IMG/VR virus record: IMGVR_UViG_3300042372_000326 | Span: 1-23,919 of that record | Source: a virus | DNA length: 23,919 nucleotides | Direction: 5' to 3' (one strand) | Shown: piece after piece, positions 20,155-23,919 of the stretch | Layout: the number at the start of each line of letters is the position of its first letter | How positions within the stretch are numbered: the stretch's first letter is position 1 | Notes under the pieces: model-generated | Seen by the model: only the letters and a program-made list of their open reading frames with translations | The model's database searches: none | Told to the model about the DNA's origin: nothing | Program-made: the position numbers and the translations under genes

Positions 20155-20472
20155 TTATGGATACCGCCGCCGGTCGCCCTTGGTCTTCCAAACATGGCAC
20201 TGGTGGCACAGAGCCTGCAGGTTGCTACGGTCCAGCCGCACCCCGCCAGCACGCAGCGGCACGATGTGGTCCACCTCGGTAGCCACCGCCGCCTGGCAGA
20301 TGCGGCACACGGGCTCTTCGCGGCGCACCATGCGCGACAGAAGCTCCCATGTCGAGTCATATCCACGGGCGGTCGAGTCGGGCCGCCGGTCAGCAGGTCG
20401 CGGACGGGCTGGACATTGTGGACCATGGGCGGCCAGACAGCGCTGGCACCAGCGGGGAGGACGAATGGCCAT
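20155..20472 (-). CDS. HNH endonuclease
   Basis: The 105-residue protein has a C-terminal HNH domain: C56-R-I-C59, E66-V-D68-H69-I70, N84 in RSNLQALC, and C89-H-Q-C92-H93 followed by K97. The four Cys bind a structural zinc and His69, Asn84 and His93 form the HNH core. The N-terminus has three more Cys (9, 12, 20) in a Pro/Arg-rich segment. Small HNH proteins beside terminase genes assist cleavage at cos in HK97-like phages; the gene is separated from the terminase by the repeat region. The ATG at 20472 lies in the divergent promoter region and has only a weak ribosome site. Confidence 0.9.
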   Translation of the reverse strand: MAIRPPRWCQRCLAAHGPQCPARPRPADRRPDSTARGYDSTWELLSRMVRREEPVCRICQAAVATEVDHIVPLRAGGVRLDRSNLQALCHQCHVWKTKGDRRRYP

Positions 20473-20572: not shown

Positions 20573-20746
20573 ATGACAATGTTCAGCCCTACCTTCCACA
20601 GAGACAACACGGTGACCTTCTGGTCAGTCTATGAGCAGCGCTGGGTGCGCTGCAAGGCCTCGCGCATTAGCGACGCCGAGCTTGCCAGCATGTCCGATTC
20701 CGAGCGCCGCCGGGTGGCCCGGATCGTAGCCAAGGAGGTGCTCTAA
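20573..20746 (+). CDS. Small hypothetical protein, first gene of plus-strand operon
   Basis: The 57-residue protein begins MTMFSPTFHRDNTVTFWSVY after an AGGAG site and ends with a charged helix (SDSERRRVARIVAKEVL). A longer open frame upstream would read through the promoter region and is rejected. Its TAA overlaps the next ATG (TAATG). I do not recognise the family. First position after the promoter suggests early expression, but no function can be assigned. Confidence 0.72.
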   Translation: MTMFSPTFHRDNTVTFWSVYEQRWVRCKASRISDAELASMSDSERRRVARIVAKEVL

Positions 20747-20979
20747 TGCGCGCCTACGCCTACGTCACCACCGAGACCTGCCTCCGGCGCCACGCCGTCC
20801 GCCCCGGCGCGCTGATCGGGCGCGACGAGATCCCCGTTTCGCGGCACGGCGACTACACCGCCTGGTGCGACGGCAAGCGGGAGACGCTCCGCCGCATGGC
20901 CGACGGCGACACGGCTTACGGGCGCAAGTCAGCGCGAGCCGTGGCGATACTAATGGGCTGGGCGCGGAGGGACGCATGA
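20746..20979 (+). CDS. Small hypothetical protein
   Basis: The 77-residue basic protein begins MRAYAYVTTETCLRRHAVRP with an AAGGAGGTG site upstream. It contains DYTAWCDGKRETLRRMADGD and ends GRKSARAVAILMGWARRDA. Its start overlaps the previous stop and its stop overlaps the next start (ATGA), so it belongs to the coupled operon. The two Cys (12 and about 41) do not form a recognisable motif. The family is unknown. Confidence 0.72.
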   Translation: MRAYAYVTTETCLRRHAVRPGALIGRDEIPVSRHGDYTAWCDGKRETLRRMADGDTAYGRKSARAVAILMGWARRDA

Positions 20980-21557
20980 AAAACGCTGAACTCCGACAAT
21001 TCCTCGCGTCCAGATCCGCCTGCCAACCAGCCATGGACTGGCTCGGCGACCGCGACTCGGGCCAGATGTGGGCGGACTGCGAACGCCCGGACTGGCTACT
21101 GTGGTGGGCCGCGCATGCGGTGCCCCGCCAGGAACTAGTCCTCGCGGCGTGCGATTGTGCCGAGTTGGCGCTAAGGTTCGTCCCCGCGAATGAGCACCGC
21201 CCCCGGCTGGCGATTGAGACGGCGCGGCGATGGGCGACAGGCGAGGCGACGGTCGAGGAGGTGAGAGCTGCCCGCGCTGCTGCCGACGATGCTGCCGACG
21301 CGGCCTACGCTGCCCGCGCTGGTGCCCGCGCTGCTGCCGACGCTGTTGCCGCTGCTGCGGCCTACGCTGTTGCCGCTGCTGCGGCCTACGCTGCGGCCGA
21401 CGCTGCGGCCTACGCTGCCCGCGCTGCCTACCATGCCGACGAACCTTTCCGAGCTGCCTACGCTGCCCTCCGCGCTGCCAACGTTACCTACGCGACCGTG
21501 TGCCAGCTCATCCGCCAGCGTTGGCCCGAGTGTCCGCTGCCGGAGGTGGCGGCATGA
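20976..21557 (+). CDS. Ala-rich Imm-5-like putative immunity protein, copy 1
   Basis: The 193-residue protein starts at an ATG in an ATGA overlap, with GGAGGG upstream. Residues 1-100 include FLASRSACQPAMDWLGDRDS, RPDWLLWWAAHAVPRQELVL, AACDCAELAL and RPRLAIETARRWATGEATVE. The AxxCA-x-x-AL block followed by RPRxAIE-x-x-x-x-W-x-xGEATxEE resembles proteins annotated as Imm-5-like. Residues 101-170 are an Ala-rich stretch of AAYAA/AAADAA-type units, probably helical, and the C-terminus is VCQLIRQRWPECPLPEVAA. The true function in phages is unproven; immunity, anti-defence and host-interaction roles are all open. It is a tandem paralogue of the next gene. Confidence 0.75.
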   Translation: MKNAELRQFLASRSACQPAMDWLGDRDSGQMWADCERPDWLLWWAAHAVPRQELVLAACDCAELALRFVPANEHRPRLAIETARRWATGEATVEEVRAARAAADDAADAAYAARAGARAAADAVAAAAAYAVAAAAAYAAADAAAYAARAAYHADEPFRAAYAALRAANVTYATVCQLIRQRWPECPLPEVAA

Positions 21558-22096
21558 CCAACGAAAAACTCCGCCAATTTTTAATCTCCAGATCCGCCTG
21601 CCCTGCGTTCATGGACTGGCTGGGCAAACGTGACTCCGCCCAGATGTGGGCCGAGTGCCGTAGACCGGACTGGCTGCTTTGGTGGGCGGGACAGGCCGTA
21701 TCCCGCCAGGAACTGGTGCTGGCGGCGTGCGATTGCGCTGAGACGGCGCTGCGCTACGTGTCGGAGGTCGAAGACCGCCCCCGACTGGCGATAGAGACGG
21801 CGCGGCGATGGGCGAGAGGCGAGGCGACGGTCAAGGAGGTAGACGCCGCCCGCGTTGCCGCCATCTCCGCCTACATTAATGCTGGATACGCTGCTAGCTT
21901 CGCCGCCCTCACCGCGTACGCTACCCCCGCTCCCTTCGCCGCCCACTCCGCCGCTGTCGCCGCCAAAGAGGCTGCCCGCGCTGCTGCCCATGCTCCCAAC
22001 GCTGCTGCCGCTGCCAACGATGCTGCTTACGCTGAGATGTGCCAGCTCATCCGCCAGCGTTGGCCGGAGTGCCCGCTGCCGGAGGTCACCGCATGA
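21554..22096 (+). CDS. Ala-rich Imm-5-like putative immunity protein, copy 2
   Basis: The 180-residue protein overlaps copy 1 by ATGA. Its first 100 residues (FLISRSACPAFMDWLGKRDS, RPDWLLWWAGQAVSRQELVL, AACDCAETAL, RPRLAIETARRWARGEATVK) and last 19 (MCQLIRQRWPECPLPEVTA) are close copies of the neighbour. The Ala-rich centre differs in both length and sequence, with more Ser, Thr, Pro and aromatic residues. The conserved ends and diverged middle suggest a fixed fold with a changing surface. Annotation is the same tentative Imm-5-like call. A very Cys-rich frame over the same DNA is only a shadow of the GC-rich repeats. Confidence 0.75.
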   Translation: MTNEKLRQFLISRSACPAFMDWLGKRDSAQMWAECRRPDWLLWWAGQAVSRQELVLAACDCAETALRYVSEVEDRPRLAIETARRWARGEATVKEVDAARVAAISAYINAGYAASFAALTAYATPAPFAAHSAAVAAKEAARAAAHAPNAAAAANDAAYAEMCQLIRQRWPECPLPEVTA

Positions 22097-22278
22097 CCGC
22101 CCTAATCCGCGCCCTCTGGGCGCTCTCCGACGCCACCGGCAGCGCCGCCGTGTGGCTAATCGACCGGCAGGCGCAGGCGGTGCGGGAGGACGACACTCCC
22201 GCCTACCTAGGCGTCGAGGCGGTATTTGCCGTGCTCGGCTGGGCGCTGGTACTGGCTATATACGTGGCGATCTTTTGA
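22093..22278 (+). CDS. Small single-span membrane protein
   Basis: The 61-residue protein begins MTALIRALWALSDATGSAAV and ends with a hydrophobic segment of about 20 residues (VEAVFAVLGWALVLAIYVAI) that should cross the inner membrane. A short charged loop (DRQAQAVREDD) precedes it. The N-terminal stretch could lie on the membrane surface. It is coupled to copy 2 by ATGA and to the next gene by TTGA. It is not recognisably a holin, though a lysis or host-membrane role cannot be excluded. Confidence 0.7.
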   Translation: MTALIRALWALSDATGSAAVWLIDRQAQAVREDDTPAYLGVEAVFAVLGWALVLAIYVAIF

Positions 22279-22710: not shown

Positions 22711-23102
22711 GGGTAGCCCTCCCACATGCGGGACGGGTCTACTGTCCCGTTCGACTGGCACTGCCTGCACTTGCCGCTGGCGTAGTACGGCACGCCCTTT
22801 AACCAACGGCAAACATGCACCCAGCCCCGATTGCATGAGCAGTTAAGCCATGCGCCGTCAGCCACTTGCGCCCTCTGTGGCCGCAATGCTTCGAGCGCGT
22901 TCCGGATGGCGGCCGGCGTAGGCCGCTCGTAGTGCGCGTTCACCAGATCGGCCATGGCGCGGCGTGCCTGTTCTTCGTCGTCGGCACTGACCAGCACGTT
23001 GCAGGCGGCGAGGGTCCACGCCTCTGCTTGCATGCCATACGGCAGAGGTAGCGCGTTTAGTTGCGCCAAAATGGCACTCGCCACGTCTCGCCTAATGGCC
23101 AT
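22707..23102 (-). CDS. Hypothetical replication-module protein with Cys-rich end
   Basis: The 131-residue protein starts at an ATG with GGAGG seven bases upstream and overlaps the DUF1376-type gene by 11 bases. Residues 1-80 look helical (RRDVASAILAQLNALPLPYG, EEQARRAMADLVNAHYERPT). The end has C88-S-C90-NRGW, C98 and C112-R-Q-C115, a possible zinc site. Position after a replisome-type gene suggests a helicase-loader or replication accessory role, but no catalytic motif supports a definite name. Confidence 0.68.
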   Translation of the reverse strand: MAIRRDVASAILAQLNALPLPYGMQAEAWTLAACNVLVSADDEEQARRAMADLVNAHYERPTPAAIRNALEALRPQRAQVADGAWLNCSCNRGWVHVCRWLKGVPYYASGKCRQCQSNGTVDPSRMWEGYP

Positions 23103-23919
23103 TATTGGCCTCCAGAGCCCTCAGGCGCAATTCTTCGGCCCATATTGGATCCTCAGTACCTTTTGCCCCTTGCGGAACGCTCAGAGCGAACGTACCGTCG
23201 CGCAGCCACCACTGCGCCGGCTTGGGCCGGAGGTGCCGGTTGGCGCGGTAGGCATCTCGCCAGCTCGCGACTGCTCGGCGGATCGACTCCGCGAAGTCGA
23301 TGGGCCGGTCGAGGTAACTGGCCGACTGCTGGAAGGCGCTGGTGATCGCCGCGATGGTCATCGGCAGGTCGCCGCCAGCCGGTAGCTGCTCGCAAGCGTA
23401 ACGCGCTGCGTCGGCGAAGGCCGCGGTCGGGTCCGGTTCGTTTTGGGTAAGGGGGAGGGGGTCGCGCGCCGCGCGCGCGTCCTGCTCAGAAGCTGTATAC
23501 TCTCCCTCTCTTTCTATAGGTATCAGTATAGGAGTTGACGCTGAGCGTGACGCTGAGCGTGACGGTGAGCGTGACGGTGAGCGTGAAATTGTGGTTGACG
23601 CTGAGCGTGACGCTGAGCGTGCGCGAATTTCGGCGCTTTTTCTGCCGGCGTCGGCTTGGCGTTGTTTGATATCAACGAGTTGCGGTCGCTTAGCGTCCAC
23701 TGTCGGGTGAGACATGCGGGAATCTCGCTCGATGAAAAGTGGCTTCAACTCGGGCCATACCCTGTTGAAATCCCGCAAAGTCACAGCGCACATTTTCGCA
23801 AGTGAGATTGCATCGAGAGGTAAGGTTCCGTGCTTCCAGTTGAGGTCGAGCAGGTCGCGGTAGACGCCGCGCGCGGCAAGCGAAAGGCGGGTCCTGGTCT
23901 CGCTGCACAGCCAGTTGTC
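23092..23919 (-). CDS. DUF1376-type replication-associated protein, 5' end outside window
   Basis: The frame is open from base 23919 down to its TAG, giving 275 visible residues, so the true start lies beyond the edge. A shorter form beginning at 23793 would lose conserved sequence. The visible start (DNWLCSETRTRLSLAARGVY, then RDLLDLNWKHGTLP) and VWPELKPLFIERDSRMSHPT are typical of DUF1376 proteins found in phage replication modules. A low-complexity RSAS/RSPS repeat follows, then a C-terminal domain (FAESIRRAVASWRDAYRANR, RPKPAQWWLRDG) resembling helical loader- or primosome-like ends. It probably helps start DNA replication; the exact role is inferred. Confidence 0.78.
   Translation of the reverse strand, partial: DNWLCSETRTRLSLAARGVYRDLLDLNWKHGTLPLDAISLAKMCAVTLRDFNRVWPELKPLFIERDSRMSHPTVDAKRPQLVDIKQRQADAGRKSAEIRARSASRSASTTISRSPSRSPSRSASRSASTPILIPIEREGEYTASEQDARAARDPLPLTQNEPDPTAAFADAARYACEQLPAGGDLPMTIAAITSAFQQSASYLDRPIDFAESIRRAVASWRDAYRANRHLRPKPAQWWLRDGTFALSVPQGAKGTEDPIWAEELRLRALEANNGH
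23537..23620. repeat. In-frame 12-bp repeat array (iteron-like)
   Basis: Seven consecutive 12-base units: GACGCTGAGCGT twice, GACGGTGAGCGT twice, one degenerate unit (GAAATTGTGGTT), then GACGCTGAGCGT twice. In the first type ACGCT-G-AGCGT is a perfect 5-1-5 palindrome. The array encodes RSAS/RSPS tetrapeptides in the DUF1376-type gene. An AT-richer stretch with TATAC and CTATAGG lies directly beside it (about 23495-23535). Confidence 0.8.

Follow-up and report, generated by a model that had tools for sequence, protein, structure and literature searches.

Two adjacent genes of a tailed-phage fragment encode related proteins in which a conserved head is followed by an alanine-rich part written in tandemly repeated codons. 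We consider it somewhat probable that this part is a selected helical binding arm on a globular head, a recurring codon-array module that also occurs on unrelated heads and is occasionally rebuilt by repeat recombination. The head would be globular and all-helical, with an Imm5-like core, and an Ala-rich helix or helical hairpin would project from it and lead back through a conserved helix at the C terminus. This projection would be a recurring tandem codon array, GCN combined with TAY/GAY or with TGG/GAG, whose aromatic and acidic face is the putative binding surface and which may serve as a length-adjustable arm. Repeat recombination would occasionally rebuild this arm and selection would hold its chemistry. 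The arm of the first gene (copy 1) appears to be younger and repeat expanded, and that of the second (copy 2) older and irregular, so that the phage would present heads of one kind with two different arms. Our best guess for the partner is a host or mobile-element protein encountered early in infection.

The window, that is, the whole stretch of DNA analyzed, is an entire IMG/VR record of 23,919 bases, judged from its genes to be a fragment of a tailed phage. The minus strand carries terminase, portal, capsid, and tail genes (open reading frames, by eye), and next to these is a short operon of small plus-strand genes with ATGA overlaps. The operon is flanked, near the terminase genes, by a small HNH-endonuclease-like gene (20155-20472, minus strand; by eye). 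In a predicted protein of the minus strand (23092-23793), the N and C parts are separated by an Arg-Ser repeat, SASRSASTTISRSPSRSPSRSASRSAS, a further stretch of simple repeats in this phage. Copy 1 (20976-21557, plus strand, 193 aa) overlaps by ATGA with an upstream gene of 77 aa (20746-20979, plus strand), of which a relative lies a short way ahead of the family gene in contig L004. Copy 2 (21554-22096, plus strand, 180 aa) starts within its own ATGA overlap with copy 1 and overlaps likewise with a downstream small gene that has a hydrophobic C-terminal stretch (22093-22278, plus strand) and a relative at the same place in phage contig L003. These small genes and their relatives were read by eye from open reading frames. 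Scans of the operon for sigma-70 promoters and terminators found none.

Copy 1 comprises an Imm5-like head, an Ala-rich codon array, and a C-terminal helix. Its conserved N-terminal head (residues 1 to 100; 20976-21275) includes the motifs RPDWLLWW and RPRLAIETARRW and was modeled as all-helical (pLDDT of ∼85 to 97). The array (approximately residues 98 to 169; 21267-21482) consists of units such as GCT GCT GCG GCC TAC and contains a perfect head-to-tail 24-bp duplication of GTTGCCGCTGCTGCGGCCTACGCT (21345-21392); the conserved last 19 residues, VCQLIRQRWPECPLPEVAA, are encoded at 21498-21554. The center of copy 2 (21845-22036) is an older, less regular Ala-rich segment, as judged from its codons and its silent differences to L003, and is followed by the conserved last 19 residues, MCQLIRQRWPECPLPEVTA (22037-22093). 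A sequence-only reading of this DNA had described the genes as tandem paralogues with nearly unchanged ends and differing Ala-rich centers. The paralogy was confirmed by a similarity search that retrieved the second window copy at an E value of 8e−62, far beyond chance, but "nearly unchanged" was too strong: 77 of the first 100 residues are identical (77% nucleotide identity; dN/dS = 0.25; dS = 0.70), as are 17 of the last 19 and 19 of the last 24. The difference between the centers was borne out, since they can be aligned only with gaps and differ in length and order. Given the silent distance of ∼0.7 between the copies, the window pair is no fresh duplication. The Ala-rich part of the center is the source of a family of 16 overlapping repeats. 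In copy 1 the array has mixed C/T third bases; in copy 2 its form is weak, degenerate, and irregular, with Pro, Ile, Thr, and Phe within the Ala-rich stretch.

The Imm5-like label given to these proteins from family knowledge was upheld for copy 2, which matched PF21805 (Imm5_like) with 32.2 bits, above the curated gathering cutoff of 25 bits, and for 24 of 62 relatives (E ≤ 1e−3), but copy 1 fell narrowly below the cutoff (22.8 bits). The match covers residues 49 to 104 of copy 2 and 50 to 157 of copy 1 and consists of a common core, R-P-x-x-A-I-E-x-A-x-x-W, with a helical stretch rich in Ala after it. Relative to PF21805, the phage members add an N-terminal RPDWLLW segment and a codon-array center with near-uniform third bases, whereas bacterial relatives (L049 to L055) have mixed third bases and lack the codon array. 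Neither window copy matched PF14423 (Imm5), which was hit weakly by 1 of the 62 relatives (E = 5.6e−4). PHROGs gave only families without an assigned function (copy 2 versus phrog_21347, E = 1.7e−9), NCBIfam nothing relevant for the family, and none of 21 members matched the PADLOC models of antiphage defense.

AlphaFold2 models of both copies (mean pLDDT of 78 for copy 1; pTM of 0.77 for copy 2) were confident about an all-helical head and a helix at the C terminus. As to whether the Ala-rich part is an exposed helix, which the sequence-only reading had left to structure prediction, this part was modeled as helical but at low confidence (pLDDT of 28 to 64 across the two models), so the predicted geometry of the arm is tentative. 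In copy 1 the array forms a 54-residue helix (residues 93 to 146) and the start of another (156 to 182), with an unreliable tip (pLDDT of 28 to 51); in copy 2 the Ala-rich part forms shorter packed helices (pLDDT of ∼51 to 64). The best structural match of the copy 2 model was SsdAI (7jtu_B; Z = 8.2 over 138 residues, root mean square deviation of 3.4; next best Z = 4.8), the immunity protein of a type VI secretion system cytidine deaminase (PMC7901873). Both are all-alpha, and the match fits the earlier link between Imm5 and DYW-type deaminases: Imm5 appears in lists alongside toxins of the DYW-type deaminase and CdiA-C kinds and is also found in polyimmunity proteins (PMC3482391). The resemblance to PF14423/SsdAI is nevertheless a weak lead only. 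It rests on the copy 2 model, with a Foldseek E value of 1.0; the copy 1 model does not retrieve SsdAI, and its own fold search gave no meaningful match. Searches of PDB sequences yielded only low-complexity or insignificant matches, profile searches did not match 7JTU, PF14423 was matched weakly by a single relative, and no toxin gene was seen among the commonest neighbor families. Cas1 hits in the copy 2 fold search (Z of ∼4) were ignored.

Relatives with the same layout were found on about 85 distinct viral contigs (a tally of contig names) and at 19 cellular loci, mostly in metagenome-assembled genomes (MAGs) and several of them possibly proviral. The cellular loci came from a genome scan with a broad alignment; a first scan with a narrow alignment returned no relatives. 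Collections of phages and plasmids contained no DNA match to the window and no protein match to P0002, and the plasmid collection contained no protein match to L007; in searches of these collections, relatives L013 and L009 matched one archaeal virus. One 24-kb contig of a Chloroflexi MAG (JAKAHU010000019.1; L040 and L045), possibly a provirus, carries several scattered Imm5-like heads, some with degenerate centers, and in a Spartobacteria MAG (L044:2754-3980) an Imm5-like head is fused to a C-terminal half resembling TPR repeats. Among 82 complete copies, the N domain ends at residues 84 to 115 (coefficient of variation [CV] of 0.07), and the Ala-rich center spans 19 to 202 residues (CV of 0.37), which locates the length variation among homologues in the center.

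Tandem arrangements are found again in phages that are not related to one another. Adjacent copies, or a copy beside a fragment, occurred in 9 of 74 records searched whole (G006, G007, G012, G014, G024, G027, G030, G039, and G041), and L123 and L124 have three copies each. Tandem copies mostly cluster by contig in the tree, and the duplication has therefore been repeated rather than inherited once. L003 is equally close, or closer, to each window copy as these are to each other, and judging from this phylogeny the window pair is probably older than most tandem pairs. Contig ends fell inside the family gene, mostly in the array, in 22 of 85 viral contigs, compared with 4% expected from a rough estimate based on the lengths of gene and contig; the repeats by themselves could explain this excess. 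Since assemblies break in the array, metagenomic copy counts are minimum values. Neighboring genes across ∼40 loci encode helicases, DnaB, primase, RecT, RecE, RusA, methyltransferases, integrases, and terminases, a set that suggests early regions devoted to DNA metabolism. Among the 25 commonest families per library for 133 neighboring proteins from ∼40 loci, none was a toxin. Homogeneous polyimmunity loci likewise contain tandem immunity-like paralogues without an obvious toxin (PMC3482391). In contrast to these, the genes described here lie in phage early regions and the copies differ in a codon-repeat arm. To our knowledge, such a difference between copies has not been described for homogeneous polyimmunity loci.

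Closely related genes revealed how the center changes. In two pairs the DNA of the N domain and C tail is 100% identical and the genes differ by a single in-frame indel, of 42 bp (L107/L108) or 96 bp (L018/L021); within the L072 array, copies 1 and 3 have identical N domains and C tails and are separated by four indels. Change driven by repeats and confined to one region of a fixed scaffold, as proposed earlier from the sequence, thus describes these pairs well. Indel lengths in the closest pairs are divisible by three, so on-off switching of the kind seen in simple-sequence contingency loci is not at work. Centers also move separately from their flanks. The first part of the copy 2 center is shared with L003, and silent differences between these two genes number 30 of 69 in the N domain versus 2 of 49 in the center (P = 6e−7); the tandem pair of L009 shows the same pattern (31 of 72 versus 3 of 57). 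Because silent differences are so much rarer in the center than in the N domain, centers have been exchanged or homogenized independently of the ends. Pooled pN/pS was 0.88 in the center and 0.31 in the head, but repeats misalign, and a reading of this ratio as positive selection was rejected as unproven. The variation of the center appears to be mainly gain, loss, and shuffling of codons.

The arrays have a distinctive codon signature, being written largely with one third base or with two alternating. The purity of the third base had a median of 73%, versus 30% for the same base in the head of the same gene, and exceeded that of the head in 75 of 75 arrays. In L098, for example, all 97 array codons end in T, compared with 14% in the head. 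Codon bias was ruled out as a cause of this purity, since the arrays run against the usage of their own genes. In 25 nonredundant arrays with a single dominant Ala codon, 552 codons deviated from it at positions 1/2 only and 30 at position 3 only, counts that are not independent because repeat units are amplified; by distinct codon types, the figures were 117 and 15, respectively. On the head tree, a tree of weak support, the third-base label switches at least 22 times. Our reading is that arrays have repeatedly been born from one codon or codon pair and have grown by copying of units. Fish type I antifreeze proteins offer a parallel, being Ala-rich amphipathic helices in which one Ala codon dominates in each lineage, contrary to the usage of the species; this lineage-specific bias has been read as a sign of independent origins and of the mutability of Ala codon runs, presumably via unequal recombination (PMC3855684). 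The arrays described here differ in spacing Tyr/Asp or Trp/Glu, where antifreeze proteins space Thr, and in belonging to phage proteins with several unrelated heads. Ice binding is not claimed for them.

The spacing of bulky and polar residues in the arrays is that expected of one face of a helix: in 39 nonredundant arrays, gaps of 3 and 4 between these residues were enriched (z = 13.7 and 9.1, respectively), the excess was present in 34 of the 39, and gaps of 3 and 4 alternated more often than in shuffled gap order. Their composition, too, is specific. Among changes one step away from the Ala codon, Asp was found 170 times, Ser and Thr 43 times each, Gly 23, Val 21, and Pro twice, and Tyr, two steps away, was as common as Asp. 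Among the matches listed, C and T arrays contained 10 to 11% Tyr, 10 to 11% Asp, and 0.2 to 0.4% Trp, and G arrays contained 6.8% Trp, 8.7% Glu, and 0.2% Tyr, values somewhat inflated for the bait residues, as both sets were largely collected with DNA baits containing Trp or Tyr/Asp codons. Codons ending in G cannot encode Tyr or Asp, and G arrays use Trp and Glu instead. The set collected by heads concurs (4 G arrays, with 26 Trp versus 2 Tyr/Phe/His); a test of Trp against G-ending arrays on independent pairs had low power. Judging from these compositions, aromatic plus acidic chemistry appears conserved across arrays with different third bases.

Searching viral contigs for the array pattern retrieved at least 244 open frames with a C or T array. 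Of those listed, 92 carried the Imm5-like head and 111 failed to match it; another 35 were truncated before this could be judged, and 6 were short. The heads of the matches listed fell into clusters H0 (100; the Imm5-like family and close kin), H1 (42), H2 (24), H3 (8), and H4 (5), and profile comparisons of one head with another gave probabilities below 1%. Ten representatives had no Pfam match above the cutoff (one weakly matched DUF7666) and no PHROG match. H1 to H4 (contigs behind L129 to L367) are four further families that carry the Ala/Tyr/Asp codon array and could not be assigned firmly to Pfam or PHROGs. On all five heads the array is alike in composition, third-base purity, and 3/4 spacing, and G arrays were found on all five. 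The module thus seems to be attached to at least five unrelated phage heads, as far as sequence comparison can tell. Some contigs (L097 and L136) carry arrays on two different heads, sometimes with a different third base. In two others (L145:1329-2833 and L180:8290-9794), a gene with the Imm5-like head adjoins one with the H1 head, both with C-ending Ala arrays, and recombination between them is conceivable. None of 794 sampled bacterial genomes contained the array 24-mer, but the collections are unmatched in size and virus specificity is therefore only a lead. We found no description of the module in open-access papers.

H2 heads occur in the cultured Xanthomonas phages KPhi1, phiXaf18, BsXeu269p/3, and XapPhi1-6 (L370 to L378); XapPhi7-15 were not among the hits, and the array gene of KPhi1 is K1pha_60. 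Their G-ending array, of ∼70 to 80 residues in the KPhi1 group and 144 in XapPhi3-6, combines Ala with Ser, Trp, Arg, Glu, and Gln. In annotated genomes of the KPhi1 group the gene comes shortly after a VapE-type gene, and in several records it is unannotated. XapPhi3-6 belong to a group isolated from 1987 to 2013 (PMC13168109). XapPhi5/6 differ from XapPhi3/4 at four array sites, all silent and without indels, and KPhi1 differs from phiXaf18 at two sites of the gene, both silent. Rapid length change is thus not universal, being absent among the complete XapPhi3-6 genes; two deposited XapPhi genomes terminate inside the array. With silent changes only and a stable length, the array protein is conserved in the short term, and large changes are episodic.

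These results bear on what the variable center is for. The proteins could be immunity-like or counterdefense proteins in an arms race, with changes of the arm and the differing tandem arms tracking toxins or defense proteins, much as the sequence-only reading had proposed in terms of a diversifying surface or an allele-specific partner. The PF21805 match, the ties of Imm5 to DYW-type deaminase and CdiA-C toxins and to polyimmunity proteins (PMC3482391), the alignment of the copy 2 model to SsdAI, whose cognate toxin is a DYW-group deaminase (Z = 8.2), the recurrence of tandem copies, and the early-gene neighborhoods all speak for this. We think it rather unlikely all the same. A Z of 8 may arise by chance in helical proteins, the Foldseek E value is 1.0, and the copy 1 model misses SsdAI; toxins were not seen among the commonest neighbor families of ∼40 loci, nor PADLOC matches in 21 members. 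Neither diversification of a surface by substitution nor an allele-specific partner was borne out: the arm varies in length and order with its chemistry unchanged, shuffling of like codons can account for the amino acid differences between arrays, and the substitutions in recent isolates, including those in the XapPhi arrays, are silent. An arms-race use of the binding arm is a live, unproven special case, and the binding arm itself is ranked first. At the other extreme, GCN microsatellites might grow neutrally by slippage in a tolerant linker, with composition and helicity arising incidentally from GCN codons and from units of three or four codons. The dominance of one Ala codon, the in-frame indels separating near-identical genes, and the pooled pN/pS of 0.88 in the center versus 0.31 in the head are all what slippage would leave behind, but one-step neighbors of the Ala codon would hardly be so unequal (from 170 Asp to 2 Pro), Tyr would not rival Asp despite needing two changes, and G arrays would not switch to Trp and Glu and so keep aromatic and acidic residues. 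The alternation of 3 and 4 also exceeds that of a concatenation of the same gaps, and recent point changes are silent; we hold neutral slippage to be improbable. The center was not found simply to drift, and it would seem to be neither neutral filler nor a demonstrated target of diversifying selection.

A structural role, in which the arm acts as a rod for oligomerization or assembly, perhaps within a complex for replication or packaging, and its length matters little, has a similarly small chance of being correct. Ala-rich helices can pack closely, the neighbors include helicase, DnaB, primase, RecT, RusA, and terminase genes, and the KPhi1 array gene comes after a VapE-type protein. However, the same arm on unrelated heads suggests a property shared by arms rather than one complex, and the genes have no position among structural genes. 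Diversity-generating retroelements and contingency loci share with this family a programmed or repeat-driven variation confined to one part of a protein, and the concentration of variation at codon positions 1 and 2 would suit a center that is the variable region of such a retroelement. That idea was rejected and has next to no chance of being right: a search for reverse transcriptase (PF00078) was negative in all 28 records, with positive controls detected, and ∼63% Ala with tandem periodicity is unlike the products of adenine mutagenesis.

The selected binding arm may be one case of something wider. It is conceivable, though we would not yet bet on it, that phages share an exchangeable arm of codon-array Ala helices whose face is aromatic plus acidic and which arose again and again from repeats of one codon and are carried by many unrelated early proteins, an evolvable interaction device that is lengthened, shortened, and swapped. 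The codon signature provides a means of finding array proteins, and since cultured Xanthomonas phages carry the array, its function is testable. High nonsynonymous counts in such arrays can mirror codon shuffling and need not imply an arms race. Should the arm prove functional, a large number of unannotated early proteins of phages would share one evolvable module that family libraries have missed, perhaps through repeat masking.
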